Source: Longimicrobium sp. (GTDB lineage: Bacteria; Gemmatimonadota; Gemmatimonadetes; Longimicrobiales; Longimicrobiaceae). Taken from it: DNA of 38,691 nucleotides. A program made the translations under genes and the position numbers. The notes below the pieces were generated by a model. It was not told the origin of the DNA. It ran no database searches and was given only the letters and a program-made list of their open reading frames with translations. The stretch lies in contig DASVWD010000215.1 in assembly GCA_036389795.1 (NCBI GenBank), forward strand, positions 1 through 38,691, written 5' to 3'. Positions 5,470 to 28,926 of the stretch are shown piece after piece; the first letter of the stretch is position 1, and each line of letters begins with the position of its first letter.

Positions 5470-5591
5470 CAGAACGGCGTCCGGCCTCGGCTCGGCTGCA
5501 CATCGACGTCATTTCCCGACTGCACGTCATTGCACGACGGCGTCACCGGCAACACCACGAGCGTAAGGGGTAGCGCGAGGCGACGTTTCAT
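5469..5591 (-). CDS. 40-aa exported peptide coupled to a TPR gene
   Basis: MKRRLALPLTLVVLPVTPSC is a short signal sequence: two Arg, a hydrophobic core, and a TPSC that may act as a weak lipobox. A 20-residue tail with NDVQSGNDVDVQPSRGRTPF follows. The start codon overlaps the TPR stop (ATGA at 5588-5591) and its own stop overlaps the next ATG, so translation is probably reinitiated along the chain. A tiny exported peptide encoded at the end of a TPR gene is the layout of Rap-Phr pairs, in which the processed peptide binds the TPR protein. The comparison is one of layout only; the residues are not Phr-like. Confidence 0.55.
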   Translation of the reverse strand: MKRRLALPLTLVVLPVTPSCNDVQSGNDVDVQPSRGRTPF

Positions 5592-7277: not shown

Positions 7278-7490
7278 ATGAAGCCCACACGCATTCTCGT
7301 CGCGATTATCGCAGTCTCAGGAGCTGCCCTCGGGTGCAGCGGAACGAATCCAACCGCGACACCTCATGAGGCGCCGCGGTTTGACTCAGGGTACGGAATG
7401 GGTTCGGGAAGTGTTACAGGAGGAACATCTGAGACAACTCAATTTGATTCCGCGAGTCGGAATGGTTACGGCATGGGATCCGGAAGCTAG
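7278..7490 (+). CDS. 70-aa lipoprotein-type peptide with repeated GYGMGSGS motif
   Basis: A GAGGTG ribosome site precedes the ATG at 7278. MKPTRILVAIIAVSGAALGC is a lipoprotein signal peptide with lipobox AALGC (Cys20). The mature part is about 50 residues, hydrophilic, and carries the motif FDSGYGMGSGS followed by a second NGYGMGSGS at the very C-terminus. The TAG stop overlaps the TAG stop of the convergent TPR gene through a CTAG palindrome. The same arrangement occurs for the 59-aa peptide at 9004. The product should be exported, and the short C-terminal motif could be released by proteolysis. A signalling role is inferred from pairing with TPR genes. Confidence 0.7.
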   Translation: MKPTRILVAIIAVSGAALGCSGTNPTATPHEAPRFDSGYGMGSGSVTGGTSETTQFDSASRNGYGMGSGS

Positions 7491-9003: not shown

Positions 9004-9183
9004 ATGAAAACCGCGCGCACTCTGTTCACCACCATGGTTGTGGTGGCAGCCACCGCCGCTTGCTCGGAACATCCGACCAAGACGGAACCCCTAACCACGC
9101 CGAGCGCTCTTTTCGACGGTAGTTCCCCGCCTCCTGACACCACCGGCGGGATGCGCGGCGGATCGTACGGATCAGGTCACTAA
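9004..9183 (+). CDS. 59-aa lipoprotein-type peptide with GGSYGSGH tail
   Basis: An AAGGAG ribosome site stands 9 bases before the ATG. MKTARTLFTTMVVVAATAAC is a lipoprotein signal peptide (Cys20). The mature part is about 40 residues and ends in GGMRGGSYGSGH, similar in character to the GYGMGSGS tail of the 70-aa peptide at 7278. The frame ends in TAA, which overlaps the TAG of the convergent TPR gene (9180-10484) by 4 nt. Signal peptide, Gly/Ser C-terminus and stop-overlap are all repeated in the 7278 pair, which argues that this small gene is real and functionally linked to the TPR gene. Confidence 0.7.
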   Translation: MKTARTLFTTMVVVAATAACSEHPTKTEPLTTPSALFDGSSPPPDTTGGMRGGSYGSGH

Positions 9184-10484
9184 GCCGGTGGGGATTCACC
9201 TGGTGGGCGTCCACGCTTCGGTCCGCTCCACAACCGGAGTTTGATCCGGCACGCCCGCGTTATGGTTTCAATGCGGTTTAAAGCCGGGGGGGGCGTTTCG
9301 GGCACCCCCGGCTCCCTTATCCGCACACGATCTAATAGCTCTAGCGAAGTTCGCTCTACTTCAAACATACGGCGCGCGCGTGCCACCTCAGCAGCGTTTC
9401 TTGCCACGTGTTCGGCAACATCCCAATCTTCTGCCAATTGTGCCGCGTATCCAAGACTCCGCAGAGTTGCAGGGGCGAATTCCGGATACGTTTCCAGCAG
9501 ATCCAAGGCCGTATCTCTCGCTTCGTGATACAAATCCGTGCGATGCGCACCCGCTGCCGCCTGCGCCATGGTTCCCCAAGCGAGCACCGGGTCTTGAGGG
9601 CGCCGCATTGTTTTGATCGCCTGTTGAAGCAGATTGAGAGCGGGAGAATAAAAGGCACAAGCTACGAAGAGATAAGCTACATCGTGCACCAAGAATGGCA
9701 CTAGCGGATGATGGATTGGATAATGATCAAGCGCGTTAAGTGCGTATTGCTCGCCTGCCTTGTATTGCTTTAATTCCGAACAAATCGCGAGCAGGTTATG
9801 TTCCGCCTCACCCGCCATTCGCATATGCCGCTCGTTGTAAGCTGCCCGAGCAGCCTTATCTATTATCCTACGTGCACGATCATACCGTCCCAAGCTGTAC
9901 ATTAGCCATCCGTAGCCAACAAACGCACTAAACTTCTCACCGAAGTCGTTGGCTAGGACTGCTAAGACACGGCCTCGAACATACCATGGGCCAGCACGGG
10001 CGGGCAGACCAGCACGCCGGCACGTACGAGCGGCTAAGTTCGCAAGAGAAGCGTCATTCGACTTCACCAGGGCTGCCGCTTCGGCAAAGTGGGCAGCCGT
10101 CTGCAGGTATGCCCGATCTTCGGCCCACTGGTATACCTGACGGCATGCCTCGGCTACCTCGTCCCGCACAAGATCAACGGGGGTGCGAACTAAATCGCGG
10201 AATCGCTCCAGGGATTCCATAATTTCGGGAATCGCTTTACCAGCGTCCGACCAAAGATCAGCGGGCGGTGGGTGGAACAGGTAAATGCGGTCCCCAGGGT
10301 CGGAGCGCGCCCATAGCGCGACGTCACGCAAGGATTCCCAAAGCGCCAATGCAACTAACCGCTCAGAACACAATTCATCCAAGATCTCGAAATCGCGGCG
10401 CCAACTTGGAATAGGCGGCACGATTTGCCGACGACTGGACCGCCGCGGCCTCCTGAGCGTTGCGCTTGAGCCGTTCGCTGTCAA
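9180..10484 (-). CDS. TPR-repeat protein 3 (Rap-like size)
   Basis: The 434-residue protein matches TPR proteins 1 and 2 in length and order. A basic N-terminus (RRPRRSSRRQIVPP) is followed by FEILDELCSERLVALALW (compare EILDELRSDLGMLLW in protein 1) and VALWARSDPGDRIYLF, then TPR-like helices: YLQTAAHFAEAAALVKSNDA, RYDRARRIIDKAARAA, KAGEQYALNALDHYP and WDVAEHVARNAAEVAR. The only start near the N-terminus is a TTG at 10484, just after an in-frame stop, so the true start is uncertain. It is cytoplasmic with no catalytic motif. It converges on the 59-aa lipoprotein gene with 4-nt stop overlap. Confidence 0.76.
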   Translation of the reverse strand: MTANGSSATLRRPRRSSRRQIVPPIPSWRRDFEILDELCSERLVALALWESLRDVALWARSDPGDRIYLFHPPPADLWSDAGKAIPEIMESLERFRDLVRTPVDLVRDEVAEACRQVYQWAEDRAYLQTAAHFAEAAALVKSNDASLANLAARTCRRAGLPARAGPWYVRGRVLAVLANDFGEKFSAFVGYGWLMYSLGRYDRARRIIDKAARAAYNERHMRMAGEAEHNLLAICSELKQYKAGEQYALNALDHYPIHHPLVPFLVHDVAYLFVACAFYSPALNLLQQAIKTMRRPQDPVLAWGTMAQAAAGAHRTDLYHEARDTALDLLETYPEFAPATLRSLGYAAQLAEDWDVAEHVARNAAEVARARRMFEVERTSLELLDRVRIREPGVPETPPPALNRIETITRACRIKLRLWSGPKRGRPPGESPPA

Positions 10485-14729: not shown

Positions 14730-15917
14730 TCAGTCCGTCCGAAGGGCGGCGAGGATACGCTCCAGGAGCGCGTCGACGGCGGCCGAGGGGGCGGGTGGAC
14801 GGTCGCGCGGGCGCAGGCGCGCGTAGCCAGTGGCATCCGTCCGGCGGCGGAGCTCGTCCGCGCGGCGTGCGCGCTCGGCGGGACGGTCGCTGGCCGCCAG
14901 GAGGCGCAGAATCTCAATCTCCATCACCTCGTCGTCCAGGCGGCGCGCGCCCGCGGCCACGCGCCCGGCAAGGGTGCGCGCGGCGGCCGAGGGAACGTGA
15001 AGAACCGCGAGCGCCGCCAGCGCCTGCACGATCAGGAGCGCGGGGAGCTGCAGCCCCTCCAGCCCGCCCATCCGCCCGAAGACGGCCACCAGTTCACCCA
15101 GCGTGCCGGCCGCACTCGTCTCGTCGCCGGCCAGCAGAAGGAGTTCGGCACGGCGCACGTGCGCCACCATGCGGTCCCAGACGCTCCCCGCGCGCACGGC
15201 AGGCTCCACCTGCGCCAGGGCGACGTCCACTCGCCCCTCGCGCCCGAGGGCGATCCAGCGCGCCTCGCGCAGGAAGGCCGCGGCGCCGCCCGCGCCGCGC
15301 TCCGCGTCGCCGTCCGCCATCTCCCGCACCTCGGCCCAGCGGCCGGCGGCGAGAAGGACGCGGAGCCCGTCGATTGCCCACGCGGTGCGGGCGAAGCGCT
15401 CCAGCCCGGCGGGTTCCCACCCTGCGGCCTTCCAGTGCGCGGGGATGATGGCGCGTCCGGCGAGCGACACGGGCGCATCCATCCGGCAGGCGCGCACCTC
15501 GGCATAGTGGCGTAGTGCGGCGGCGGCGTGGCCGCGCAGGGCGTGCAGGCGGCCCAGGTTTATCCAGGGCTGCAGCGCCAGCGCCAGGAGCGCTCCCTCC
15601 CCCGTGCGGTCGGCGCCCGCCTGCAGCCAGGCGACCTGCGCGCGCACGACGCGCTCGGCATCGTCAAGCCGGCCGGCATGCGCGAGGATGAGCGAGGCGT
15701 TGTTCCCGCACCCGGTGACTGTCCGCGCCCGGCCTATCACGTCGGGCTCGGCGAGTGCGGTGGCCAAGCTCCCGGAGAGATCCTCGGCCCACGCTCCCAG
15801 CGGGCGCCGCGCGGGCTGCTCGTTGACCGTGAGCAGGCGCACCCCGGGAAGCGCCGCCGCGTGCGAGTTCGGCGTCAGGGGCGGAGCGAGGGTTGGGGCG
15901 GCCAGTGCGGCACTCAT
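14730..15917 (-). CDS. Helical-repeat (TPR-like) protein, 395 aa
   Basis: The protein has no signal peptide and consists of Ala-rich helical pairs resembling degenerate TPRs: NASLILAHAGRLDDAERVVR, INLGRLHALRGHAAAALRHY and AAFLREARWIALGREGR. No catalytic motif is visible. A VTGCGNNASL element near residue 70 and a basic C-terminus (ELRRRTDATGYARL) stand out. It starts 119 bp after the fatty acyl-AMP ligase gene on the same strand. TPR-type proteins in biosynthetic clusters often scaffold or regulate, but I do not recognise this one. Confidence 0.75.
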   Translation of the reverse strand: MSAALAAPTLAPPLTPNSHAAALPGVRLLTVNEQPARRPLGAWAEDLSGSLATALAEPDVIGRARTVTGCGNNASLILAHAGRLDDAERVVRAQVAWLQAGADRTGEGALLALALQPWINLGRLHALRGHAAAALRHYAEVRACRMDAPVSLAGRAIIPAHWKAAGWEPAGLERFARTAWAIDGLRVLLAAGRWAEVREMADGDAERGAGGAAAFLREARWIALGREGRVDVALAQVEPAVRAGSVWDRMVAHVRRAELLLLAGDETSAAGTLGELVAVFGRMGGLEGLQLPALLIVQALAALAVLHVPSAAARTLAGRVAAGARRLDDEVMEIEILRLLAASDRPAERARRADELRRRTDATGYARLRPRDRPPAPSAAVDALLERILAALRTD

Positions 15918-16036: not shown

Positions 16037-17779
16037 TCATGCACTCCGCGTCTCCACGTGAAGCAGCCGTTCAGGAATCGCCAACGCGCCGTCCATGTAG
16101 AGGCTCCGCAGCCGCACGCGCTGGATCTTCCCGCTGGAGGTGCGGGGGATGGAGCGCGGGAGCACCAGCACCACATCGCGCACGGGGAGCTGGAACTCCT
16201 GCAGCACGCAGAGGCGGATGCGCTCGGGAAGCGCCTGGTGTCCGCCGTCCTTGAGCGCCCGGGGTGGCTCGGCGACCACCACCAGCTGCTCGCCCCCGGC
16301 CGTGGCATCGTACACGCCGAAAGCGGCCACCCCGCCCAGGTCGTCGCGCAGCCGTGCTGCGAGCGCCGCCTCAATGTCGGAGGGGACGAAGGTGCGGCCG
16401 CCGTACTTGAGAATCTCCTTGATGCGGCCGATCACGTGCAGTTCCCCATCCAGCACCACGCCCACGTCGCCCGTGGGCACCCAGCCTTCGACCGCCACGG
16501 GGCGCATCTCGCCGTCCGCTCCGCAGAAGGCGGTGGTGGCGCTGATGCCGGCGATGTGGATCTGTCCCACGCGCCCCGCAGGGAGGTCTCGCCCGTCGTC
16601 GTCGCGGATTGAGATCCTCGTCCCTCGCACGGAGCGGCCGTTTCCCACCGTCGCCTGCGCGTCGACCGCGTCGCCCTCCCCGTTGCCCAGGACGCGCACC
16701 TCGCCGCGCGCCAGGGCGCTCCGGCTCAAGCGGCGGACCGGCACTTCAGTCCCCGGCGTGCGGAGGGTGACTGCGACGCAGTTCTCAGCCAGGCCGTAGG
16801 CGGGCTGGAGGACGCCCGGGCGCAGGCCGAGCGCAGCGAAACGCTCCTCAAAGTGGCGCGAGCTCTCGGCGTGAACCGTCTCGCTCCCGTTCAGCGCCAG
16901 CCGCAGCGACGACAGGTCGTGCTGGCGCAGCCGCTCCCACGCCGCAGGGCGCTGGCTGCGCGCCAGGCAGAGCGAGTAGCCGAACTGGGGCCCCATGGTG
17001 ATGGTGCCGCGGTAGCGCGCGACCGTCTCCAGCCAGCACAGCGGGTTGCGGACGAAGTCCGCGGGGCGCAGCAGCACCAGCATGCCCCCCGACCAGAGCG
17101 AGCCCAGGAGCGCGCCGACCAGTCCCATATCGTGGTAGAGCGGAAGCCAGCTCACCGTCACGTCGTGCGCGCCGCCGCCCAGCCGCTCGGTGACGGCAGC
17201 CAGATGCGCGTTCACGTTCCCGCGCGTGAGGCACACGCCCTTGGGCTGCGCCGTGCTCCCGGAAGAGAACTGGATGAGGAGGAGGTCGTCCGCGCGGCGC
17301 TCGGCGTCCACGAAGCCATCGACCGGCGACCCGGCGGCGAGCAGCGGCTCGACCGCGAGCACGCGCACGGGGATCTCCGCTGCCGAAAGCGCGGAGGCGA
17401 ACGCGGCGAGGCTGGGTTCGGCCACCAGGCACCAGCGGGCGCGTCCGGCGCGGAGGGCGGCGCGCACGGCATCGCTCTTCGCATCACCCGGAACAGGGGC
17501 GGCCACGTCCTGCACAGGGACGAGGGTCGCGCCCAGGCGCTGGACGGCGATCAGGGTGACCACCGTCTCCCACCGCGACGACATCGCCAGCGCCACGCGG
17601 GCGCCACGCTCCACGCCGCGCGCGCGCAGGGCGGCGGCCACCGTCGCGCTCCGAGCCCAGAGCGACGCGTAGGTATGGCGCTCCTCGGCGGCGCCGGGGG
17701 TGACGAGCGCCAGGTGATCGGGGTTGCGGGCATGTTCGCGGACCGCCTCCGGAACGCCGCGCTCCAGGTCGAACGTCAT
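16037..17779 (-). CDS. Fatty acyl-AMP ligase (FAAL-type adenylate-forming enzyme)
   Basis: The enzyme should activate a fatty acid as acyl-AMP and load it on the ACP encoded upstream. The start is the ATG at 17779, which overlaps the preceding stop as ATGA and follows GGAGGGGAAGG; a longer frame upstream is not needed. The 580 residues carry the P-loop LLLIQFSSGSTAQPKG (about 167-181), the FAAL-like WLPLYHDMGLVGALL (211-225), the adenine-binding YGLAEN, TGDVGVV, the hinge GRIKEILKYGGRTFVPSDIE and, near the end, SSGKIQR with the catalytic lysine. It is probably competent. With ACP and two dehydrogenases it matches the lipid-starter cassette of ramoplanin/enduracidin-type pathways. The exact chain length cannot be read. 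Confidence 0.9.
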   Translation of the reverse strand: MTFDLERGVPEAVREHARNPDHLALVTPGAAEERHTYASLWARSATVAAALRARGVERGARVALAMSSRWETVVTLIAVQRLGATLVPVQDVAAPVPGDAKSDAVRAALRAGRARWCLVAEPSLAAFASALSAAEIPVRVLAVEPLLAAGSPVDGFVDAERRADDLLLIQFSSGSTAQPKGVCLTRGNVNAHLAAVTERLGGGAHDVTVSWLPLYHDMGLVGALLGSLWSGGMLVLLRPADFVRNPLCWLETVARYRGTITMGPQFGYSLCLARSQRPAAWERLRQHDLSSLRLALNGSETVHAESSRHFEERFAALGLRPGVLQPAYGLAENCVAVTLRTPGTEVPVRRLSRSALARGEVRVLGNGEGDAVDAQATVGNGRSVRGTRISIRDDDGRDLPAGRVGQIHIAGISATTAFCGADGEMRPVAVEGWVPTGDVGVVLDGELHVIGRIKEILKYGGRTFVPSDIEAALAARLRDDLGGVAAFGVYDATAGGEQLVVVAEPPRALKDGGHQALPERIRLCVLQEFQLPVRDVVLVLPRSIPRTSSGKIQRVRLRSLYMDGALAIPERLLHVETRSA

Positions 17780-19008
17780 CCTTCCCCTCCCTCGAGGGCA
17801 GCCCGCCGCATCAGCGCCGCGAGCCGGCTCCCGTACAGCTCGCGCATGGTCTCCGAGGTCCCCGCGAACACGCTGAGGACGCGCACCTCGCGGATCACAC
17901 GCTCCAGCCCCGCGTCTTCCCACGCCGCCGCGGGACCGCGCAGGCGGACGCAGTCGTCCACCACGCGCTGCGCCAGCTCGCAGAGGGCGAACTTGGCCAT
18001 CGAGGCCGCGGCCGCGTCGGTGCGCCCGGCGCCCACCTCGCCCGCGGCGCGGTAGGCGAAGGCGCGCGCGCCCTGCAGCCAGGCGTGCATCCGTGCCAGC
18101 GGGGCCGCGGCCGCCGGGGCGGACGTCGCCGCCGTCTCCTCCAGCACCGAGCCGGCGAGCGCGAGCGAGCCGACGGCGATCAGCAGCCGCTCATGGCAGA
18201 GGACGTGGGCCATCTGCGGATAGCCGTGCCCGGCGCGGCCCACCGTGAGGCGCGCGGGGACGCGGCAGCGGTCGAGCCGCACGTGCCCGGTGGGCGACGC
18301 CTCCAGCCCCAGCTTGCAGTGCCAGGCCACCGTCTCGAATCCCGGTGCGTCGGTGGGGACCGCGATCAGCGACATGGTGAGCGGACCCGCGCCGGGCGAG
18401 GTGCGCGCCAGGACGAGGACCACGTCGGCGATGGGGGCGTTGGTGATGAACATCTTCTCGCCCGTGACCACCCACTCGGTACCCTCGCGGACGGCCGTGC
18501 ACGAGACGGTGTGGGGGAGCGCAGAGCCGCCGGCCGGCTCGGTCGCGCCCAGCGCGCCGATCGCCTCGCCCGCAGCCAGCGGCGCCAGCCACTCGCGCCG
18601 CACCTCAGCCGAGCCGAACAGGGCCAGGAGTGGGCAGAGGGTGTTGGACTGCACCATCAGGCTCACCGCCGCGCTCGTGGCACGGTGACGCATGAGCTCC
18701 TCGGCCAAGGCCACGGCGTAGGAATAGTCCAGCCCGGCGCCGCCCATCTCGGGCGGAACCGTCACCCCCAGGATTCCGGCGCCTCCGGCGGCGCGAAAGA
18801 GCTCGCGGGGGAGGCGCCCCTCGCGCTCCCACCCGTCCAGGTGCGGGAGGACGGCCTCGCGCACCAGTCGTCCGACCCGGACGCGGAAGGCGCGGTGACC
18901 CTCACTCCATGCGTACGGCGCGTCCGTGCCCGGGGCGCTCCGGAGCCCGGCCGGGTCGCGCGCGGCGTCCGCCGACTCGGCGGCTGGAAGGGAGAGGAGG
19001 TCGGTCAT
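17776..19008 (-). CDS. Acyl-CoA (acyl-ACP) dehydrogenase 2
   Basis: The 410-residue flavoprotein starts at the ATG at 19008, which overlaps the stop of dehydrogenase 1 (ATGA). The family pattern is complete: the N-terminal helical domain ends at the FAD-binding segment GALGATEPAGGSALPHTV, then WVVTGEKMFITNAPIADVVL (strong ACAD signature), KLGLEASPTGHVRLDRCRVP, and the C-terminal VFAGTSETMRELYGSRL. The usual catalytic Glu of the YEG motif is Ala here (FAGTSE). The alternative base position of long-chain/isovaleryl enzymes is kept (CHERLLIA), so activity by that Glu is likely. It presumably introduces a double bond into the acyl chain on the ACP. Confidence 0.92.
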   Translation of the reverse strand: MTDLLSLPAAESADAARDPAGLRSAPGTDAPYAWSEGHRAFRVRVGRLVREAVLPHLDGWEREGRLPRELFRAAGGAGILGVTVPPEMGGAGLDYSYAVALAEELMRHRATSAAVSLMVQSNTLCPLLALFGSAEVRREWLAPLAAGEAIGALGATEPAGGSALPHTVSCTAVREGTEWVVTGEKMFITNAPIADVVLVLARTSPGAGPLTMSLIAVPTDAPGFETVAWHCKLGLEASPTGHVRLDRCRVPARLTVGRAGHGYPQMAHVLCHERLLIAVGSLALAGSVLEETAATSAPAAAAPLARMHAWLQGARAFAYRAAGEVGAGRTDAAAASMAKFALCELAQRVVDDCVRLRGPAAAWEDAGLERVIREVRVLSVFAGTSETMRELYGSRLAALMRRAALEGGEG

Positions 19009-20135
19009 GCGGGCACGCCGAAGGCAGATTCGAAGTGGTGCGCCGGGGGCGCGGACACAGCGCGCAGGTCCTCGGCGGCGGCGCGCTCCAGGGCGCCTGG
19101 GTCGCCGGCGGCGAGCAGCCCCACGCTCAGCAGGTCGCGGTACAGGTGCGAGGCCGGGTGGTCGGCCATGAAGCCGCGGGCGCCCATCAGCTGCATGCAT
19201 CCCTCGGCGACCCGCAGCGCGGCGTCCACCGTGACCAGCATCAGCGCCGCCGCGCGCGGGGGAGCGAGGGCGTCGCGGAGGCACGCATCGGCTGCCTCAC
19301 CCGCAAAGGCGGCGGCGATCTCCAGGTCGGCCATCAGGTCCGCCAGGCGGTGGCGGACGGCCTGCTGATCGCCCAGCACCCGTCCGGGGCCGAAGGCGCG
19401 CGTCCCCGCGAAGGCCAGCGTGCGCCGCAGCACCTCCTCCGCCGCGGCGACGACCGCCGTCGCGAGCAGAAGCCGCTCCTCCGCAAGCGCCCCGGCGATC
19501 CCCGGCGCTCCAGCGGCGAAGACTCGCTGGGCGGGATCGACGAGACACCCGTCCAGCCGCACCTCCCCCAGGGCGGCGGCGTGCAGCCCCACCGCGCCAC
19601 GCGGCACGATGGAGACGCCGGGGTCCGCCAGCGAGACCACGGCCAGCGCCCCCGTCCCGGCGCCGGGGACCAGTTCCAGGGGAACGATGACCCAGTCCGC
19701 GCCGGGCGCGTTCAGCACTGCGCCCAGGACGCCGTCCAGCCGCAGCCCGCCCGATTCCCCCAGGCGCTGCGCCCGCACCCCGTCGCCTTCACGCGCCCAC
19801 GCGACGCAGCCGACCGCCTCCCCCGCGAGCATCGGCGTCAGGACACGCGCCTGCACGGCGGGCCCTGCATGGCGATCCAGCAGGAGGAGCGGCGCGCCGA
19901 CTGCATGCAGCAGCGTGGCCGCGGTCCCCAGGGAGCCGGCGCGGCCCAGCGCGTCCGCCAGTTCCAGCCGGCCGGCGGCGTCCTCCGCCGCCGGAAGGAG
20001 CCCTGCGCGCCCCAGCGCCCGCACCTCCGCAAACGGCGCGGCGCGCTCCCGCTCCCACGCCTCCACGCGGAGCGCCACGTGGTCGCGCACGAACGTGGCG
20101 GCGGCCGACCGGGCGGGGCAGGTGGGGATGATCAC
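19005..20135 (-). CDS. Acyl-CoA (acyl-ACP) dehydrogenase 1, divergent
   Basis: Start: GTG at 20135 overlapping the ACP stop as GTGA. The 376-residue protein is an acyl-CoA dehydrogenase relative. The C-terminal helical domain is clear (AEERLLLATAVVAAAEEVLR, ALRVAEGCMQLMGARGFM, ASHLYRDLLSVG). The middle beta-domain is degenerate compared with dehydrogenase 2: the WVVTGEKxFITN signature is replaced by LRLDGVLGAVLNAPGADWVI. The C-terminal GTxEI motif is absent (LLAAGDPGALER). An ERLLLA glutamate at the long-chain-type base position remains. It may be catalytic or a partner subunit of dehydrogenase 2. Pairs of such dehydrogenases desaturate the acyl chain in ramoplanin-like clusters. Confidence 0.85.
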   Translation of the reverse strand: MIIPTCPARSAAATFVRDHVALRVEAWERERAAPFAEVRALGRAGLLPAAEDAAGRLELADALGRAGSLGTAATLLHAVGAPLLLLDRHAGPAVQARVLTPMLAGEAVGCVAWAREGDGVRAQRLGESGGLRLDGVLGAVLNAPGADWVIVPLELVPGAGTGALAVVSLADPGVSIVPRGAVGLHAAALGEVRLDGCLVDPAQRVFAAGAPGIAGALAEERLLLATAVVAAAEEVLRRTLAFAGTRAFGPGRVLGDQQAVRHRLADLMADLEIAAAFAGEAADACLRDALAPPRAAALMLVTVDAALRVAEGCMQLMGARGFMADHPASHLYRDLLSVGLLAAGDPGALERAAAEDLRAVSAPPAHHFESAFGVPA

Positions 20136-20407
20136 GCGGCCGGGCTCCCCGTGGGCGCGGGCACCAGCGAGTCGCCGATGGCCGCGATCAGCGCGGCCAT
20201 GGTCATTTCGGGCGCCAGGCGGGTGGAGAGCGCCTCGGTATCCACCTCGCCGTGCAGCGCCTGCTCCACCGCCACCACCGACTGCGCCAGCGCCAGCGAG
20301 TCCAGTCCCACGGAAGAGACCGTGGCGCCGTCGTGCAGCACCTCCACCTCCACCCTCAGCTCGGCGGCGATGGCCTCGCGGATCGCTTCCCTGTGGTCGT
20401 CGCTCAT
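20132..20407 (-). CDS. Acyl carrier protein
   Basis: The 91-residue protein has the carrier-protein fold signature: an N-terminal helix (HREAIREAIAAELRVE), then SSVGLDSLALAQSVVAVEQ with Ser37 as the phosphopantetheine attachment site (GLDSLAL), and a short C-terminal helical part. The extra acidic C-terminal tail is short. The stop overlaps the GTG of dehydrogenase 1, beginning the coupled run ACP, dehydrogenase 1, dehydrogenase 2, FAAL. No phosphopantetheinyl transferase is in the window, so that activity must come from elsewhere. The carried acyl chain is the probable donor for the LPLAT-like transferase encoded upstream. Confidence 0.92.
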   Translation of the reverse strand: MSDDHREAIREAIAAELRVEVEVLHDGATVSSVGLDSLALAQSVVAVEQALHGEVDTEALSTRLAPEMTMAALIAAIGDSLVPAPTGSPAA

Positions 20408-20553: not shown

Positions 20554-22965
20554 TCAGTCATGGCGAAGTGCGACGGAGGGCTCCACGCGGGTGGCCGCAC
20601 GGGCGGGGATGAATGCGGCGGTCAGCGCCACGGCGAACATCACCACCGGGCCCGCGGCGAACACCACCAGGTCCGAGCCACCCACTCCGTACAGGAGCGA
20701 GCGCAGCAGCCGGGTGAGCACCCACGACGCGGGGAGCCCCAGCACCACCGCCATCCCGGCCAGCCGCGCCCCGCGCGCGACGAACAGCGCCGTCACCGCG
20801 CGCGGCGAGGCGCCCAGCGCCGCGCGGATGCCGATCTCCTGCGTGCGCTGCCGCACCGTGTACGAGAGGATGCCGTAGATCCCCAGCGAGGAGAGTCCCA
20901 ACGCGATGACCGCGAAGACACCGGCCAGCCAAGCGTACAGACGCGGGAGCCACATCGAGCGGCGCGCCACCTCGTGGAGCGTCCCGGCCTGATCCACCGG
21001 GAGCTCCGGATCGATGCGACGGAGCTCCCCGCGCACGCCCGGGATCACGTCGGCGGGATTCCCGGCACGGGTGCGAACCACCAGTCGCCCAAACGGAAGC
21101 GCCGCCTGCGCGAGCGGGACGTACACGGTGGGCCAGGGGGGGAGGGCCACCCGCGTGTCCTTCACGTCGCCCACCACCCCCACCACCTCGCGCCAGGGGC
21201 CGGCGGCGCGGCCCAGCCGCACCCGCTTCCCCACGGCGCTCTCCCCTGGCCACCAGAGCCGTGCCATCGTCTCGTTGACCACCACCACCGGCACCGCGTC
21301 GGCGCGCTCGCTCCCGTCGAAGGCACGACCGGCGCGCAGCGGGATGCGCATCACCCGGAAATAGCCGCGGCTCACCGGATTGGAGAGGGCGAACGGAGCC
21401 TCCTCGCCCGCGGCCGCGACGCGGCCCTCGACGGCGACCTCGCTCCCCCGGCCCCCACCGCCCAGCGGGAGGACGCCCACCGCAGCGGCACCCTCCACCC
21501 CGGGGAGCGCCGAGACGCGGGCGATCAGCTCGTCCCACAGCGCCTGCTGCTGCGCCGACGCCGGATAGCGCCGCAGCGAGAGCGCCAGGCGCGCGGTGGC
21601 CACCCCCTCCGCGCGGAAGCCGGGGTCCACGGCCCGCAGTGCCACCAGGCTCTTCGCCAGCATCCCGGCGCCCACCAGCAGCACCAGCACCAGCGCCGTC
21701 TCGACCACCACCAGCGTACCCTGCATCCGGCCGGCGTGCGCGTCGGTGGTGCCGCGCCCGCCGGCTTTCAGCACCTCCTGTAGCTCCACCCGCCGCAACT
21801 GCAGCGCGGGCGCCAAAGCGAAGAAGACGACGCCGGCCAGAGAGAGCCCCGCCGCGAAAACCAACACTCGCCAGTCGAGGGAGAAGTCCACCCAGAAGGG
21901 GAGCTGGATGGGAATGGCCGCCACAAGAAGGCTGCGTCCGGCGAGCCCCATGAGCACCCCGGCGGCACCGCCCAGTCCGGCCAGCACCGCCCCCTCGGCC
22001 ACGAGCTGCCGAACAATTCGCCCGCGGGAAGCTCCGAGCGCGCTGCGCACCGCCATCTCCTTGCGGCGTTCCACCGAGCGGGCCAGGAGGAGATTGGCCA
22101 CGTTGGCCCAGGCGATCGCCATTACCACCAGGGTAAGCCCCTGGAAGAGGAGCGCGGCGTGGCCGGTCTCGCCGCGTAGCGCCTCGTGCAGCGGCCTTAC
22201 CGCGACGGTAACCCCGTCGTTGCTCTCCGGGTGTGCCTCGGCCAGGCGCCAGTTGATGATGGCGATCTCGCCCGCCGCGCCCTCCAGCTCCGCCCCGGGC
22301 GCCAGCCGGCCGACTGCGGCCAGGGTGCGCTCGCCGCGGCGGCGGTGCGCGGAGTCGGCCCGGAGCGGCACCCAGAGCTCGGCATACTCGGGGAAGCGAA
22401 AGCCCACCGGCATCACGCCCACGATCGTGTGCTCGGTGCCGTCGATCCTCAGCGTCTTCCCCACCGCTGCGCGATCGCCCCCGTACCAGCGCGTCCACAG
22501 CGCGTGGCCCAGCACCACCACCGCCGGAGCGCTCGGCGCTCCCTCGCCGACGGCGAAGCCGCGGCCCAGGAGGGGGGTGACGCCGAGTACCCGGAAGAGA
22601 TCCTCGCTCACCACCGCCCCGGACGCACGCTCGGCCTCGCCGCCGCCGGAGAGGTCGAAGGCGGCGTCGCGGAAGGCGGCCATCGCGGAGAACGAGCGGC
22701 TCTGCGCCCGCCAGTCGGCGAAATCCGGGTACGAGGTCGACATCCAGTCCACCGTCCCCCGCTCCGGTGTCTGCTCGTCCAGGTACAGCAGCCGGTCCGG
22801 TTCCGGGAAGGGGAGCGGCTTCAGCACCAGCGGGTTCAGCACGCTGAAGATCGTGGTGTTCGCCCCCACGCCTAAGGCGATTGCGCCCACCGCCAGCAGC
22901 AGGAAGCCGCGGGTGCGGAAGAGCGCGCGGACCGCGAAACGCAGGTCGTGGGTCAGGAATTCCAT
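20554..22965 (-). CDS. ADOP/MacB-type ABC permease, 803 aa
   Basis: The protein begins MEFLTHDLRFAVRALFRTRG, the usual start of acidobacterial duplicated orphan permeases. It has two FtsX-like halves, each with an N-terminal membrane helix, a periplasmic MacB core and several C-terminal helices. Visible elements: GAIALGVGANTTIFSVLNPL (first helix), GVMPVGFRFPEYAELWVP (periplasmic core), ANLLLARSVERRKEMAVRSA (coupling helix) and TQEIGIRAALGASPRAVTAL (second coupling helix). No ABC ATPase gene is in the window, so it must borrow one, which is why such permeases are called orphan. In this cluster it probably exports the mature peptide or helps place it in the envelope. It starts 110 bp after the M50 gene ends. 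Confidence 0.93.
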   Translation of the reverse strand: MEFLTHDLRFAVRALFRTRGFLLLAVGAIALGVGANTTIFSVLNPLVLKPLPFPEPDRLLYLDEQTPERGTVDWMSTSYPDFADWRAQSRSFSAMAAFRDAAFDLSGGGEAERASGAVVSEDLFRVLGVTPLLGRGFAVGEGAPSAPAVVVLGHALWTRWYGGDRAAVGKTLRIDGTEHTIVGVMPVGFRFPEYAELWVPLRADSAHRRRGERTLAAVGRLAPGAELEGAAGEIAIINWRLAEAHPESNDGVTVAVRPLHEALRGETGHAALLFQGLTLVVMAIAWANVANLLLARSVERRKEMAVRSALGASRGRIVRQLVAEGAVLAGLGGAAGVLMGLAGRSLLVAAIPIQLPFWVDFSLDWRVLVFAAGLSLAGVVFFALAPALQLRRVELQEVLKAGGRGTTDAHAGRMQGTLVVVETALVLVLLVGAGMLAKSLVALRAVDPGFRAEGVATARLALSLRRYPASAQQQALWDELIARVSALPGVEGAAAVGVLPLGGGGRGSEVAVEGRVAAAGEEAPFALSNPVSRGYFRVMRIPLRAGRAFDGSERADAVPVVVVNETMARLWWPGESAVGKRVRLGRAAGPWREVVGVVGDVKDTRVALPPWPTVYVPLAQAALPFGRLVVRTRAGNPADVIPGVRGELRRIDPELPVDQAGTLHEVARRSMWLPRLYAWLAGVFAVIALGLSSLGIYGILSYTVRQRTQEIGIRAALGASPRAVTALFVARGARLAGMAVVLGLPASWVLTRLLRSLLYGVGGSDLVVFAAGPVVMFAVALTAAFIPARAATRVEPSVALRHD

Positions 22966-23075: not shown

Positions 23076-24401
23076 CTATCCTGCCCGTTGTGAGGCCTGC
23101 GCCTGGCGCGGCCGCACCTCGCGCCAGACGGCGCGCGCGGCGCGGGCCAGACCGAGGAGCATGGATCCCAGGCGAACGACGAAGTGATAGGTGAACTTGA
23201 CGGTACCGATCAGCACCAGCGTTCGCCACGACACCGACAGTAGCGCTGAGCCCAGAGCCACCAAGTGGAAGGGTCCCAGCGCCGTCCACACCCCGCGCAG
23301 CGCCGCCGGATAGGTGACCGCCACCGCCATCAGCAGCCGCTGGAAGACGAAGTGGAAGGTGAAGACGAAAAAGGCGAGCCCCACCCCCGAGTACGCGAGC
23401 AGCACGGCGAGCGCCCCGCGCGAGAGGGGGAGCGGCTCCGGCCGCACCCGCCCGCGCCCGAAGAGGCGGAGGAAGACCCAGCGGGGGAGCCCCGCGGTGC
23501 GCGCGTGCAGGTTGGGAATGCCCAGCACGTCCGACATCAGCCAGTACCCGTCCATCTTGAAGAACGGGTTCAGCGAACTGGCGATGGCCAGGTCGGTGGC
23601 CAGGAACACGTACAGCGGCACCGCCGACCCCGTGGACGCGAAGACGCCCAGGAGCGCCGCGGCGAAGAGTGCCTGGAAGTAGATGCCCCCCACGTCGATC
23701 AGCGCGCGCTGCTTCCGGGGCAGCCGCCAGGCCTCGGAGAGGTCGGTGTAGAGGACGGTCATGTAGTAGTACATCCCCCACCCGATCTCCAGCCGGCGGC
23801 ACCCGAGCCACGCCGCCGCCGCCGCGTGCCCCAGCTCGTGCAGGAAGGTGCTGGCCACCATCAACCCCAGGATGGCCCCGAAGCGCGGCCCCCGCACCTG
23901 CTGGAACCCCAGCCCGTGCTCCGGCGCCAGCTTCAGCCAAAAGAGGAGGTGCGCGGCGGCGATCAGCACCAGGCCGGCGGCGAACGCCGGACGCGAGAAC
24001 GTCCACCCAACCAAACGGGCCAGCGGGGTGACCACCGACGGCGGGAGGAGCCGCATCCGGAGCGTCAGATACGACAGCCGATCTGCCTTCTTTGCGGGGA
24101 GCGGCGCCGCCTCCGCGCCCACCGGCGCCAGGATGCCGCGGGGGACCAGAAAGCCGTCCACCAGCTTGTGGACGTCCGCCGCAGAGAGGCCGCCGCGCGC
24201 CTCAGCGGCTCGCGCCACCTCGTCGGTCGCGCGCGTGCCATCGAACTCGCGCAGCAACGCCGCCAGCCGGGTGGGGACCACGAAGCGCGCCGCGGAGCCA
24301 TCCACGCGCGGCACCTCGCACAGCGTCTGCGGCTCCACGCCCGCGCCATCGAACGGGCAGGTCTGGATCGCGGTGTTGAAGCGGAGGAGAGTCGAGCTCA
24401 T
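23076..24401 (-). CDS. M50-family membrane metalloprotease with N-terminal PqqD-like domain
   Basis: The start is the ATG at 24401, preceded by GGAAGGA. In 441 residues, about 40-95 form a PqqD-like winged-helix region (VVPTRLAALLREFDGTRATD, ending in a short helix and LVPRGIL), the type that binds RiPP leader peptides. Residues 140-430 are a polytopic membrane domain with zinc motif HELGH (188-192) and downstream NPFFKMDGYW (278-287, Asp284 the third ligand). Both motifs are intact, so proteolysis inside or at the membrane is expected. It follows the precursor gene by 225 bp. Its likely job is to cut the leader or couple cleavage with export. YydH- and daptide-type clusters also contain membrane proteases, but this is not a proven homolog. 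Confidence 0.88.
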   Translation of the reverse strand: MSSTLLRFNTAIQTCPFDGAGVEPQTLCEVPRVDGSAARFVVPTRLAALLREFDGTRATDEVARAAEARGGLSAADVHKLVDGFLVPRGILAPVGAEAAPLPAKKADRLSYLTLRMRLLPPSVVTPLARLVGWTFSRPAFAAGLVLIAAAHLLFWLKLAPEHGLGFQQVRGPRFGAILGLMVASTFLHELGHAAAAAWLGCRRLEIGWGMYYYMTVLYTDLSEAWRLPRKQRALIDVGGIYFQALFAAALLGVFASTGSAVPLYVFLATDLAIASSLNPFFKMDGYWLMSDVLGIPNLHARTAGLPRWVFLRLFGRGRVRPEPLPLSRGALAVLLAYSGVGLAFFVFTFHFVFQRLLMAVAVTYPAALRGVWTALGPFHLVALGSALLSVSWRTLVLIGTVKFTYHFVVRLGSMLLGLARAARAVWREVRPRQAQASQRAG

Positions 24402-24626: not shown

Positions 24627-24842
24627 TTAGATCTGGGTCGCGCTGAGGCCGGCGCTGGGTTCGAGGCTGCCGCCGCCGCCGCCGCCGCTGGTGCAATAGG
24701 CGTTGGTCGTGGGGCCGGAGGGGCTGCAGGTGGTGTTGGTCCCGCCGGTGGTGCAGCCGCAGTTGTCGTCGCAGAGCTCGGCGAACTCGAGGCGGTCCTC
24801 GAGTTCCAGGATCGAGAACTCCGCAGTCAGCTTCTGGTCCAT
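24627..24842 (-). CDS. RiPP precursor peptide, 71 aa, five Cys and a Gly6 run
   Basis: A GGAGTGA ribosome site precedes the ATG. The leader part (1-22) is acidic and helical (FSILELEDRLEFAE, residues 9-22). The core begins near residue 23: LCDDNCGCTTGG with Cys24, Cys28 and Cys30, then Cys39 and Cys50, many Thr/Ser/Asn/Gly, followed by six Gly (53-58) and the tail SLEPSAGLSATQI. Small size, an acidic hydrophobic leader, a Cys/Gly/Ser/Thr-rich core and placement between maturase and protease genes make it the likely substrate. The Cys residues could take thioether bonds from the radical SAM enzyme; Ser/Thr could be dehydrated, but no dehydratase is seen. Lipidation at a nucleophile is proposed from the neighbours. 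No known precursor family was recognised. Confidence 0.85.
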   Translation of the reverse strand: MDQKLTAEFSILELEDRLEFAELCDDNCGCTTGGTNTTCSPSGPTTNAYCTSGGGGGGSLEPSAGLSATQI

Positions 24843-24943
24843 TGTGTCACTCCGAGGTTGATGGGTGGGATGGTGGATTGCCGAGACCGGGACTGCAAAG
24901 GGTGCAAGGACGAACTTCGTCCTGTTGCATTGAAGGCCCTGCT

Positions 24944-26239
24944 TCAGTCGCTCTCACGGAGGAGCCCGTGGGCCTGCAGTCGCGCCAGCACGTCGAGCGT
25001 GGGGCCGCGCTCCCCGGCCGGAAGGTCTTCGACGGCGGCCCGGTCGAGCCCCCGCTCCGTCTCGAGGGGGCGGAGGAGCTCCGCCGCCTCCGGAGGGAGC
25101 GGGAAGGCACGCAGCGTCCGCGCGTCCACCAGCGCCGCCCCTGCCCGGCCGTCAAGCCGCACGCAGCGGCCCACGTCCAGGCGGAAGGCGGCACCCGAGC
25201 CGAGCCGGCGCTCCACGGCCACCGGGTCCGGCGGACCTTCCACGGGCGGCGCCACCCCGGCCAGCCGCCAGCGGTGCAGGAAGCGGACGTCCTGCCACTC
25301 GGCCGGGTCCCCCGCCACGTGCTCCGCGAAGAAGTCGTACAGCGCCTGCATGGTGCGGTGGACGTGCTCGGCCGCGTCTTCGCCAGGGGGCGGGGGGAGG
25401 ATCGGGACGCCGCACGCCACCCGCCCCGGGTGCGGCCCGTCGGGGAGTGCGGCCACGGGGAGGATCGCCGCGCCGTTGGCGGCGGCCAGGCGCGCTGCAC
25501 CGGTCATCACCCGCAGTTCCATCCCTAGGAAGCGCACCGCGCAATGCGAGAGCACCGCCTCGCCTCCTCCCCAGCCGCGGTTGCCGTCCACGTTCAGGTA
25601 GGCCGCGCCCCCGCCGCGCAGAGCGCGCACCAGGGTGACCAGCCCGGCGGGGTCGTCGATCCGCGCCACCTTCAGCCCGTGCAGACCGGACGCCCCGTTC
25701 CCGCCGCGGCGGTTCTCCTCCACGGTGCGGGTGTCCACCGCGAAGGTGAGCGGGAGACCCAGGTGACAGAGGTCGGTGGGGACGAAGCGGTACGAGCCGA
25801 AGTGGAAGCCGCACACCAGCACCCCGCGCCCGTCCGCACGCAGCGCCTCCAGCGGCGCCTCGTCCCACCCTCTCAGCACCGGACCATTTCCTCCCGGGCC
25901 CGCATCACCGTTCCCCGCGCCGATGCGGCGCAGCGCGGCGTCGTGGTAGCGCATGTTGTGCTGCCACCCGCGCCATAGCCGGTTGCGCGCGCACTGCGCC
26001 GCCACGCTGCGCACCTGCTCCGCCGGCCACCTCTCGCCGAAGAGCGACGTAAGGTTCAGCAGGCACGCCTGATAGCCGAAGGGGACCAGCCCCTCACCAT
26101 TCAGCCGCTGGATGGCGGTGTGCACCTCGTCGGGCTCGCCGCACAGCTCGCCCAGGTAGCGGGCCACCCGCCGTCGGAGCATGTCCTGCCCCTCCGCGCG
26201 ACCCTGGGGGGGAGCGGCAGTCACGGCGGTCACCGCCAT
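24944..26239 (-). CDS. LPLAT/HtrB-like acyltransferase with C-terminal PqqD-like domain
   Basis: The start chosen is the ATG at 26239, 24 bp after the radical SAM stop; the upstream open frame is the shadow of that gene. In 431 residues the order is: N-terminal helical region (1-110), LPLAT-like acyltransferase core (130-320) and PqqD-like winged helix (350-431, FRLDVGRCVRLDGRAGAALV ... LARLQAHGLLRE). Core hallmarks: GVLVCGFHFGSYRFVP, AAYLNVDGNRGWGGGEAVLS and AARLAAANGAAILPVAAL, as in LpxL/HtrB. The catalytic HX4E box is altered: His146 is present but the acid position is Arg151 (HFGSYR). The fused PqqD-like domain should dock on the precursor leader, so the acyl group may be put on the peptide. 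It is the most unusual protein in the window. Alternative: a non-catalytic carrier or scaffold. Confidence 0.85.
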   Translation of the reverse strand: MAVTAVTAAPPQGRAEGQDMLRRRVARYLGELCGEPDEVHTAIQRLNGEGLVPFGYQACLLNLTSLFGERWPAEQVRSVAAQCARNRLWRGWQHNMRYHDAALRRIGAGNGDAGPGGNGPVLRGWDEAPLEALRADGRGVLVCGFHFGSYRFVPTDLCHLGLPLTFAVDTRTVEENRRGGNGASGLHGLKVARIDDPAGLVTLVRALRGGGAAYLNVDGNRGWGGGEAVLSHCAVRFLGMELRVMTGAARLAAANGAAILPVAALPDGPHPGRVACGVPILPPPPGEDAAEHVHRTMQALYDFFAEHVAGDPAEWQDVRFLHRWRLAGVAPPVEGPPDPVAVERRLGSGAAFRLDVGRCVRLDGRAGAALVDARTLRAFPLPPEAAELLRPLETERGLDRAAVEDLPAGERGPTLDVLARLQAHGLLRESD

Positions 26240-26262: not shown

Positions 26263-27747
26263 CTAGACGGCGGCGGGGATGTTGGGGTCCACCCGAGTGC
26301 CGTCCTTGAGCACCCGGGTGGGGTGAATGCGCTGCTTTCCGGCTTCGTACGTCTCCAGGAGCGCCGTGTGCAGCGCGCGCTTGATGGGCGGGCAGGGGCG
26401 GTTGCCGCTCTCGATGCGCTCCATCGGACAGTGCATTCCCTGGCAGACCGGCACCATGTAGCACTTGGCGCAGCCGCTGTCGTTCTCGAACGCCGGCTCC
26501 GTCCATAGGCTCATCTTGTCCAGGTCCAGGTTCAGCTCGCCGTCCGGCGTGAGCTGGCCCACCACGTTGTAGTCCTTCTTGTCGAGCGCCACCGTGCACT
26601 TCATCACCTTCCCTGTGGCGCCGATCAGGAAGTTGTAGGGGCGGGCGGCATAGCAGACGCCGTTGCCCGGGCGCGACATCGACCCGATCCCGCGCGTCTC
26701 GAAGCCCTGCTCGATGGCCGTGCGGTTCATCTCGCCGCGGACCTTCTTCTCCTCGTCGAGCCCGCAGGTGGAGAGGTTCTGATCATTGTCGCCGCCCCAC
26801 TTCCCCACCGCGTGGAAAGACAGGTGGTAGCGCGGGTCGCCGCCGAACTCCTCCCCGATCATCCGCACGAACTCGGGGAGTGCGGGGGCGTTTTCCCGGT
26901 CGTAGTTCACGCGCAGCGTCACGCGGAACTGATCCGGGCGGGCCTTGAGCGCCTGCAGGTTGGCGAAGATGGTGTCGAAGGTGCCGCTCCCGTCGCGGCC
27001 CACCCGCTTCTTGTTGTGGTACTGCGCGGGCCCGTCCAGGGTGATCTGGAAGTCGCGGATCCCCCACCCCAGCAGCTTGCCGGCGGTCTCAGGGGTCAGC
27101 AGGTACCCGTTGGTGGTCATGTGGCACCCGAAACCCAGCCCGTTCTCACGCGCCGTCTCCTGGAGGAAGGGAGCCAGGTCCTCCACCGCCTCCATTCCGT
27201 ACAGCGGCTCGCCGCCGAAATAGCTGACGGAGAGTTCCTTCAGCCGCGGAGCGCGCTTCCGCACCAGCGCCTTGACGGCCTCGCGTGTCTCCGGCGTCAT
27301 GGTGCCGCGGGCGAAGTCCTCGTAGCAGTACACGCAGCGGAAGTTGCAGTCCTCGCTGGTCATCAGAATCAGCGACAGGATGTCGGTACGGTACTGCTGT
27401 TTCCCGAAAGCGAACTGCAGGCGCTGGCGCTCGTTGGTGCCCCTGCTCACGAGGTAGCCGCGCTTGTGCAGGTACTCCACCATGCCCTCCAGCTTCGCCG
27501 TGATCCCCTGCTGGACCAGGAGCCGTTCCACCGTCTCGACCTGTTCCGGCTCGAATACAGTGATCTTCCCCGAGAAGGTATTCCACATCACCAGGCGGCC
27601 GTCGGGCGAAGTGGTGCGGGTGTTGTAGCGCGAGGGAACGAACTGGCGCCTCCCGGTCGGCAACGGCGGGATCTGGACCAACTGCTTGGGCTTGCAGGGC
27701 GACGCGTCCAGCGGCGACTGCCGCATGATGTCGGGAGTGCCGATCAT
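26263..27747 (-). CDS. Radical SAM/SPASM peptide maturase with N-terminal PqqD-like domain
   Basis: This 494-residue enzyme has an N-terminal PqqD-like region (about 45-105, WNTFSGKITVFEPEQVETVE then LEGMVEYLHKRGYLV). The radical SAM core has CNFRCVYC (Cys134, Cys138, Cys141 bind the cluster) and YFGGEPL (176-182). A C-terminal SPASM domain has Cys365, Cys384, Cys426, Cys429, Cys435, Cys440 and Cys452 for two auxiliary clusters (CAKCYMVPVCQGMHC). All are intact. Such enzymes form thioether (sactipeptide/ranthipeptide) or C-C crosslinks in RiPPs; the precursor has five Cys, so thioether formation is a natural guess. Start: MIGTPDIM with GAGG upstream. A 7-bp inverted repeat lies about 100 bp upstream. 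Confidence 0.95.
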   Translation of the reverse strand: MIGTPDIMRQSPLDASPCKPKQLVQIPPLPTGRRQFVPSRYNTRTTSPDGRLVMWNTFSGKITVFEPEQVETVERLLVQQGITAKLEGMVEYLHKRGYLVSRGTNERQRLQFAFGKQQYRTDILSLILMTSEDCNFRCVYCYEDFARGTMTPETREAVKALVRKRAPRLKELSVSYFGGEPLYGMEAVEDLAPFLQETARENGLGFGCHMTTNGYLLTPETAGKLLGWGIRDFQITLDGPAQYHNKKRVGRDGSGTFDTIFANLQALKARPDQFRVTLRVNYDRENAPALPEFVRMIGEEFGGDPRYHLSFHAVGKWGGDNDQNLSTCGLDEEKKVRGEMNRTAIEQGFETRGIGSMSRPGNGVCYAARPYNFLIGATGKVMKCTVALDKKDYNVVGQLTPDGELNLDLDKMSLWTEPAFENDSGCAKCYMVPVCQGMHCPMERIESGNRPCPPIKRALHTALLETYEAGKQRIHPTRVLKDGTRVDPNIPAAV

Positions 27748-28053: not shown

Positions 28054-28926
28054 TCACGCTCTGGCGACGATCCCCAGCTCTTCTTCGTACACCCTGCCAC
28101 GCGCGTCGGCGAGCTCCGTGTCAGTGCTTGTCTGCTCCACCCCGTGCGCGACTGACGACTCGCAGTCCGTCCGCAGGAGGTGGGTGCGGGCGAACACGTG
28201 CAGTCGCGCCGTAATCAGTCTCCCCTCCTCCGCCGGGGTGTAACCAGCCCTGTGCACGAGTCGCTTGGTCAAACGACGGAGCGTATGCTCGTGGACACCC
28301 AGTTCGACCGCTACCTCGGCGGTGCGGCGCCCAGCCAACCTGCGGCGGCTCGCGTGCAGCAGCAGCACCAGCCCGAGGAAATCCACCAGCCGCAGGCTGG
28401 GGCCCGGACCCGCCGTCTTGCGCCACTGCAGGCACAACGTGGTGCGGTCGCAGTGCACGCTCGCCGCCAACTCGGCCACGGAATAGACCGGGCGATGCGC
28501 CAAGCAGGCGTGCATCAGGGCCGTACGCAGCGAGCGGGGAAGGTGCTGCGCCTCGCCCAACAGTTCCCCCAATGCGTGCAGCGAACTGCACGCACTGGCG
28601 CGCTGCACCGCGTCGGCAAGTGCAGTGTCCGCGTTGGCCAACCACACCACCTCCTCCACCATCAGCGAGCACAGATGGCGCGCGTTCTCCATGCACCCGC
28701 GGGTGGCCAGCACAATGGGGTGACAGGGGAATCGCCTACGGAAGCGGCGCAGCTGCGCCACGTCCTCACCCTCGTGGAGCCACTCGATGCGCACCACCGA
28801 GCAGAGTGCCTGCGGCGCTCGCCGCTCGAACTCGCGCCAGTCGTGCACGAGGCAGCGCTCGGGGAGCGGGCCCGCCGCGAGATATCGTTCGAGGCGCGGA
28901 GAGTCTTTCTCGAAGACGAGGATCAT
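28054..28926 (-). CDS. AraC-type transcriptional regulator (probable cluster regulator)
   Basis: In 290 residues, the first 110 (MILVFEKDSPRLERYL... VRIEWLHEGEDVAQLRR, then HPIVLATRGCMENARHL) resemble a degenerate receiver-like or effector domain without a clear phosphorylatable Asp. Residues 148-170 (SVAELAASVHCDRTTLCLQW) and 203-225 (AEVAVELGVHEHTLRRL) form the two helix-turn-helix units of an AraC family DNA-binding domain. It is on the same strand as, and just upstream of, the radical SAM gene, separated by a gap with an inverted repeat. It probably controls the RiPP cluster. The family call rests on the paired HTH pattern. Confidence 0.75.
   Translation of the reverse strand: MILVFEKDSPRLERYLAAGPLPERCLVHDWREFERRAPQALCSVVRIEWLHEGEDVAQLRRFRRRFPCHPIVLATRGCMENARHLCSLMVEEVVWLANADTALADAVQRASACSSLHALGELLGEAQHLPRSLRTALMHACLAHRPVYSVAELAASVHCDRTTLCLQWRKTAGPGPSLRLVDFLGLVLLLHASRRRLAGRRTAEVAVELGVHEHTLRRLTKRLVHRAGYTPAEEGRLITARLHVFARTHLLRTDCESSVAHGVEQTSTDTELADARGRVYEEELGIVARA

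Follow-up and report, generated by a model that had tools for sequence, protein, structure and literature searches.

A candidate family of lipidated ribosomal peptides with Asn/Asp-Cys crosslinks, predicted from a small precursor gene of Longimicrobium sp.

We propose that a small gene in the window (the whole 38,691-nucleotide stretch of Longimicrobium sp. DNA analysed here) encodes the precursor of a new RiPP family whose products are both lipidated and NxxC-crosslinked, and we give these two features together a probability of roughly 0.45 to 0.5. Expressed in terms of known classes, and with a confidence at the lower edge of this range, the product would be a lipidated ranthipeptide bearing several Asn/Asp-Cys rings and an acyl chain, made with a cassette of the NRPS type and a leader-reading acyltransferase of the LPLAT type. 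The family is new, and so is the combination of known kinds. The argument starts from gene order, homology, conservation of the leader, a [D/N]xxC rule in the core and the co-occurrence of ligase and dehydrogenase genes with the precursor, all of which are observed directly. The features are collected in Table 1.

Table 1 Features of the precursor locus. Coordinates refer to the window; the last column gives the basis of the assignment or a remark.
Feature	Coordinates	Strand	Basis or remark
Precursor peptide gene, 71 aa	24627..24842	minus	ORF, relatives, selection and profile matches
GGAG Shine-Dalgarno site	24850..24853	minus	7 bases 5' of ATG
Conserved leader E8-A21, EFSILELEDRLEFA	24780..24821	minus	five-precursor alignment and purifying selection
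Core C24-C50: C24, D25xxC28, N27xxC30, N36xxC39, N47xxC50	24693..24773	minus	sequence and alignment
Gly6 run, G53-G58	24669..24686	minus	variable among relatives
Lysophospholipid-type acyltransferase, PatA/LpxM fold, C-terminal PqqD/RRE-like domain at about 351-423	24944..26239	minus	Pfam and model
Radical SAM/SPASM RiPP maturase	26263..27747	minus	family matches
M50 (site-2) intramembrane protease, N-terminal RRE-like domain	23076..24401	minus	daptide protease relative
ADOP/MacB-type permease	20554..22965	minus	
Acyl carrier protein, GLDSLAL	20132..20407	minus	
Acyl-CoA dehydrogenase family protein 1	19005..20135	minus	
Acyl-CoA dehydrogenase family protein 2	17776..19008	minus	
Fatty acyl-AMP ligase-like enzyme	16037..17779	minus	
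TPR-like protein	14730..15917	minus	relatives beside related radical SAM genes: L030, L032, L033, Polyangium L042/L043
Helix-turn-helix protein	28054..28926	minus	conserved upstream in G243 and L041

The acidic leader, the cysteines at positions 24, 28, 30, 39 and 50 and the Gly6 run of the precursor (MDQKLTAEFSILELEDRLEFAELCDDNCGCTTGGTNTTCSPSGPTTNAYCTSGGGGGGSLEPSAGLSATQI) are all present as the preliminary description had reported them, in an ORF on the minus strand; the net charge over residues 8-22 is -5, and neither Lys nor Arg occurs beyond residue 22. By itself, a Cys-rich ORF of this size is weak evidence because the window has 91 small ATG ORFs (40-110 aa), 7 of them with at least 5 Cys, and a chance reading frame would fit a window that is high in GC and has plentiful small ORFs. 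This explanation is contradicted by the homologs. Three other genomes have precursors with a near-identical leader at corresponding places (E = 1e-17 to 1e-35; relatives were scored with a 5-row profile), the same three maturation genes are present at all four precursor loci, and the spacing of the Shine-Dalgarno site in the relatives' genes is close to the focal one. Over the leader and C24-C28, pS is higher than pN in every precursor pair compared (0.38-0.53 and 0.06, respectively, for the focal precursor and its closest relative), and the leader is under purifying selection. As the shared leader, the excess of pS, the GGAG site and the shared maturation genes take the ORF beyond chance, we put the chance explanation at practically nil and are highly confident that the ORF is a RiPP precursor. 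None of the Pfam and NCBIfam families matched it and its homologs adjoin related maturases, in agreement with the earlier characterization as an unfamiliar RiPP precursor, for which the absence of similar ORFs near related maturases had been named as the refuting result; the search for such homologous precursors found them. A search of the precursor's own genome for additional copies gave the single occurrence only, and scans of the window with the whole of Rfam and for tRNA were empty.

Five Cys in a core rich in Gly, Thr and Ser could also belong to a metal-binding or disulfide-bonded small protein and not to a modified peptide. We consider this very unlikely, since the leader is conserved while the core is variable, the Cys count among relatives ranges from 2 to 5, and each precursor copy is adjoined by three maturation enzymes.

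The search for relatives covered 395 Gemmatimonadota genomes and gave one genome (G243) with three tandem copies, which are 57-64% identical to the focal precursor, and another (G144) with one copy. The fourth precursor locus (L041) came from the radical SAM scan and belongs to an uncultured Gemmatimonadetes MAG listed under the same genus as the window's genome; one more genome (G224, locus L126) gave a weak match only, in the profile search. Precursors beyond the known ones were absent from 154 genomes of the host order and 151 of the order of G144, which makes the family rare, and no leader of the focal type occurs in the short Cys-containing ORFs around the Polyangium, Tumebacillus and Nonomuraea relatives. 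In Tumebacillus avium, 3 identical 49-aa Cys/Ser-rich precursor-like ORFs lie downstream of a radical SAM gene (L048:13101-13641). The leader pattern common to the relatives is F[SN]ILELE[DE]RLEFA; leaders bound by PqqD/RRE-type recognition domains are usually extended in the bound state. The Gly run, with 6 residues in the focal precursor, has 10, 3 and none in relatives. This variable length suggests that it is probably dispensable and it looks like a spacer, one of the two roles proposed for it earlier; nothing points to the other one, a second cleavage region.

The core follows a spacing rule. F-A-x-x-C24-[D/N]-x-x-C28 is invariant in the precursor alignment, and the focal core consists of three NxxC and one DxxC. 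With one core per genome, there are four non-redundant cores (focal, G243, G144 and L041), in which Asn or Asp stands at position -3 for 11 of 16 Cys (11 of 12 when C24 is left out) while shuffles expect 2.0 of 16 (p=5e-5); these four are all the independent cores there are, and C24-[D/N]-x-x-C28 is a single inherited motif among them. In the focal family, only C24 and one additional Cys in G144 depart from the rule. No other offset between -8 and +8 from Cys is as marked as -3, the runner-up being +1 (p=0.04). A set of 11 sister precursors, which adjoin radical SAM enzymes of about 50% identity and mostly have GG-type leaders, shows D/N at -3 in 18 of 34 Cys compared to 5.6 expected (p=1.2e-4, the floor for 8000 shuffles), with the rule followed by only half of the Cys and the cores hand-picked after inspection. 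The shuffles count related cores as independent. At the sister loci L030-L035, several precursors, short and Cys-containing, accompany the radical SAM enzymes (about a dozen at L033), and GG-type leaders are frequent among them; M50 and acyltransferase genes were absent there at the threshold used.

The preliminary description had reasoned from five Cys that at least one might be left over. The parity argument fails, as the Cys would each pair with an Asn or Asp by the [Asn/Asp]-x-x-Cys rule and an odd count is thus uninformative; the notion of an exceptional Cys stood, in that C24 lies outside the rule and is invariant. Cys24 is possibly free or lipidated.

The maturase has CX3CX2C at residues 134-141, and SPASM Cys 365, 384, 426, 429, 435, 440 and 452 are invariant in three aligned orthologs. 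Among solved structures, its best match is 5wgg (E 4e-18), the SCIFF thioether enzyme CteB. SCIFF membership itself was rejected, with at most 5 Cys here compared to six in about 45 residues and a TIGR03974 score of 74 vs 425 bits. The TIGR04463, Clo7bot and CefB maturases belong to the same large SPASM family and have Cys-containing targets, but the focal enzyme is far under each cut-off, the best NCBIfam equivalog being TIGR04463 with 199.7 vs 525 bits. Among characterised enzymes, NxxcB links Cys to the Asn three residues upstream, which gives NxxcA a single thioether from Cys23 to Asn20 at C-beta, and Asp is a known thioether partner in freyrasin (PMC8326336; PMC13361665). By analogy, we consider it fairly probable that the maturase forms Asn/Asp-Cys thioethers in the precursor. 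It could instead perform another reaction (an S-C-alpha sactionine, epimerisation or C-C bond), with the Asn or Asp at -3 serving as a recognition or turn motif; its position under all NCBIfam equivalog cut-offs and the many reactions catalysed by SPASM enzymes of this large group would be consistent with that. We find this alternative doubtful, as the -3 offset is much stronger than the 15 others tested and is the very spacing of the characterised Asn-Cys thioether. Among the known systems closest to the focal one is the NxxC RaS-RiPP of Streptococcus orisratti (NxxcA/NxxcB, a ranthipeptide), in which a radical SAM/SPASM gene likewise adjoins that of a small precursor having Asn at -3 of Cys. 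The likeness is one of motif and gene neighbourhood, and the focal system differs in its several N/DxxC repeats, its leader and phylum, and its genes for an intramembrane protease and an acyltransferase.

The M50 protease, with HELGH at 188-192, probably removes the leader, judging from its relatives. The daptide leader protease model matches all four members and scores 111 bits for the focal one (cut-off 300), the match beginning at residue 36. The structural model has an N-terminal domain of three strands and three helices, and its similarity to site-2 protease structures (Z 7.7 to 3b4r and 6.4-6.9 to SpoIVFB) is middling and supported by the sequence match. An N-terminal RRE is also present in daptide proteases, and the daptide leader motif is ELExMEAP (PMC10036551), which resembles the focal ELEDRLEFA; thus a site-2 protease with an N-terminal RRE and ELE in the leader are shared with the daptides (MpaP). 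Membership in the daptides was nevertheless rejected, both for the protease score of 111 vs 300 bits and for the lack of a C-terminal Thr, which is invariant in daptide precursors (PMC10036551) while the final residue of the precursors here is I, M, D or S. No other daptide enzymes were seen among the focal neighbours.

Lipidation was assessed from the acyltransferase and from the genes downstream. Lip_A_acyltrans matched all four acyltransferases (25.3 bits vs the Pfam cut-off of 22.3), and the focal model, of low confidence (mean pLDDT 61), aligns to PatA with Z 16 over 186 residues. In the same low-confidence model, the stretch 351-423 has three or four strands and, after them, three helices, an order that fits PqqD; residues 367-427 weakly match a PqqD-like actinodefensin-associated protein B (E 0.003), while Pfam PqqD gave no match. 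The expected HX4D/E motif reads HX4R (HFGSYR), with Arg in all four and in the Myxococcota enzyme of G613, and acyltransferase activity is uncertain because the catalytic Glu of PatA/LpxM is replaced in all four. H146 and D218 are invariant in 5 of 5. All genome contigs were scanned with two short acyltransferase patterns and no relatives came up, a result that does not imply absence.

A search in Myxococcota gave mostly ordinary HX4E enzymes. In three Myxococcota, a related acyltransferase lies directly behind an arginase-domain protein whose N-terminus looks PqqD-like by eye, with ACP and ketosynthases upstream; HX4R was read in two of the Myxococcota enzymes (G613 and G786). In phaeornamide, a peptide arginase is paired with an acyltransferase (PMC9505594), and since the Myxococcota pairing resembles this logic we counted it in favour of peptide acylation. 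The conserved ketosynthase-ACP-arginase-acyltransferase block (L125:4973-9968, L139:7062-13090 and L140:2926-8759), which also holds an unassigned 496-522 aa protein and a 130-170 aa protein with a Tat-like motif, may represent another family of ribosomal peptides that are lipidated.

Fold, putative PqqD-like domain, lipid cassette and Myxococcota pairing jointly point to peptide acylation as the likeliest role of the acyltransferase, and on this basis we lean towards a lipidated precursor. As the focal core has no Lys, candidate acyl acceptors are Cys24, Ser/Thr and the amino terminus. Lipidated RiPPs reviewed to date use GNAT-type or polyketide-coupled acylation (PMC9505594). Selidamides (phaeornamide), lipolanthines and goadvionins likewise join a ribosomal peptide to a fatty acyl chain, whereas the focal system is predicted to use an LPLAT-type enzyme on a core without Lys; selidamide membership was rejected for the Lip_A_acyltrans domain in place of GNAT and for the absence of Lys and Arg past residue 22. 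In the literature searched, which covered few subscription papers and does not prove novelty, a lysophospholipid-type acyltransferase for RiPPs is unreported.

The focal genes, all on the minus strand, run in the order helix-turn-helix, radical SAM/SPASM, acyltransferase with the RRE-like domain, precursor, M50, ADOP permease, ACP, two ACADs, ligase and TPR, where the ACP, dehydrogenase and ligase genes overlap or almost touch, and 2.6 kb with one permease gene lie between this cassette and the RiPP genes. One contig of G243 repeats the order precursors-M50-ADOP-ACP-ACAD-ACAD-ligase-TPR and a second has HTH-radical SAM-acyltransferase, ending just past the acyltransferase gene. The order is ADOP-HTH-radical SAM-acyltransferase-precursor-M50 in L041, followed by an ACP and a FabF-like ketosynthase that could be ordinary fatty acid synthesis, and radical SAM-precursor-M50-acyltransferase-DUF6065-TPR in G144. 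The helix-turn-helix protein is a possible regulator.

The ligase cassette was absent near the precursors of G144 and L041. This, the HX4R motif in all four acyltransferases, and the gaps of 110-146 bp and the permease gene between the two gene groups would also be expected if the product were crosslinked and not lipidated, the acyltransferase being an inactive leader-binding chaperone and the acyl cassette part of an unrelated neighbouring pathway. We judge this unlikely. Orthologs of the ligase and the first dehydrogenase occur in only 2 of 21 family genomes (the window's and G243), in each of them within the precursor locus, and the gene order is shared between the two genera; furthermore, HX4R is kept in Myxococcota beside ACP and ketosynthase genes, and the invariance of H146 and D218 speaks against an inactive enzyme. 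The lipidated reading also has a precedent for its cassette: the rotihibin lipid pathway has a ligase, two dehydrogenases and an ACP, and was likened there to ramoplanin (PMC8552735), and the FAAL-ACP-ACAD logic of lipid initiation is described in general (PMC9113097). The NRPS systems of rotihibin, ramoplanin and taromycin share with the focal locus a fatty acyl-AMP ligase, a free ACP and ACAD-family genes (two in rotihibin), but there a condensation domain places the acyl chain on a nonribosomal peptide, whereas the focal locus has no NRPS.

From these genes we infer the chemistry of a pathway, its acyl site and the order of its steps. Three enzymes would bind the conserved leader through their leader-recognition domains, and the radical SAM/SPASM enzyme would then form the thioethers D25-C28, N27-C30, N36-C39 and N47-C50, with C-beta as the likeliest attachment site by analogy with NxxcA. 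The fatty acyl-AMP ligase would activate a fatty acid and the ACP would be loaded, with the two dehydrogenases probably desaturating the acyl chain. The acyltransferase with its leader-recognition-like domain would transfer this chain to the peptide, perhaps to Cys24, to Ser/Thr, or to the amino terminus if cleavage precedes. Finally, the M50 protease would cut off the leader and the ADOP-type permease may export the product.

Lipidation of ribosomal peptides has been called very rare (PMC9505594), and it is important for their activity on membranes and for their stability. If the proposal is true, a fatty acid initiation cassette of NRPS lipopeptides would serve a ribosomal peptide, an acyltransferase type absent from the searched literature would act on a RiPP, and an NxxC-type crosslinking enzyme would have up to four sites per peptide. 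Together with the Myxococcota arginase, this acyltransferase type would add a second way of lipidating RiPPs to that of the GNAT enzymes.

Other proteins in and around these loci were also noted. The TPR-like protein recurs with the radical SAM clade, including in Polyangium and Streptomyces, and may therefore accompany such enzymes in general. A DUF6065 protein (L029:3658-4470, E 1e-93) beside the G144 cluster is a possible extra tailoring enzyme. Elsewhere in the window, three 434-441 aa proteins are encoded in a row on the minus strand (5588-6913, 7487-8812 and 9180-10484); the one that was scanned had no NCBIfam match, and the three are seemingly divergent copies of one TPR-like family.
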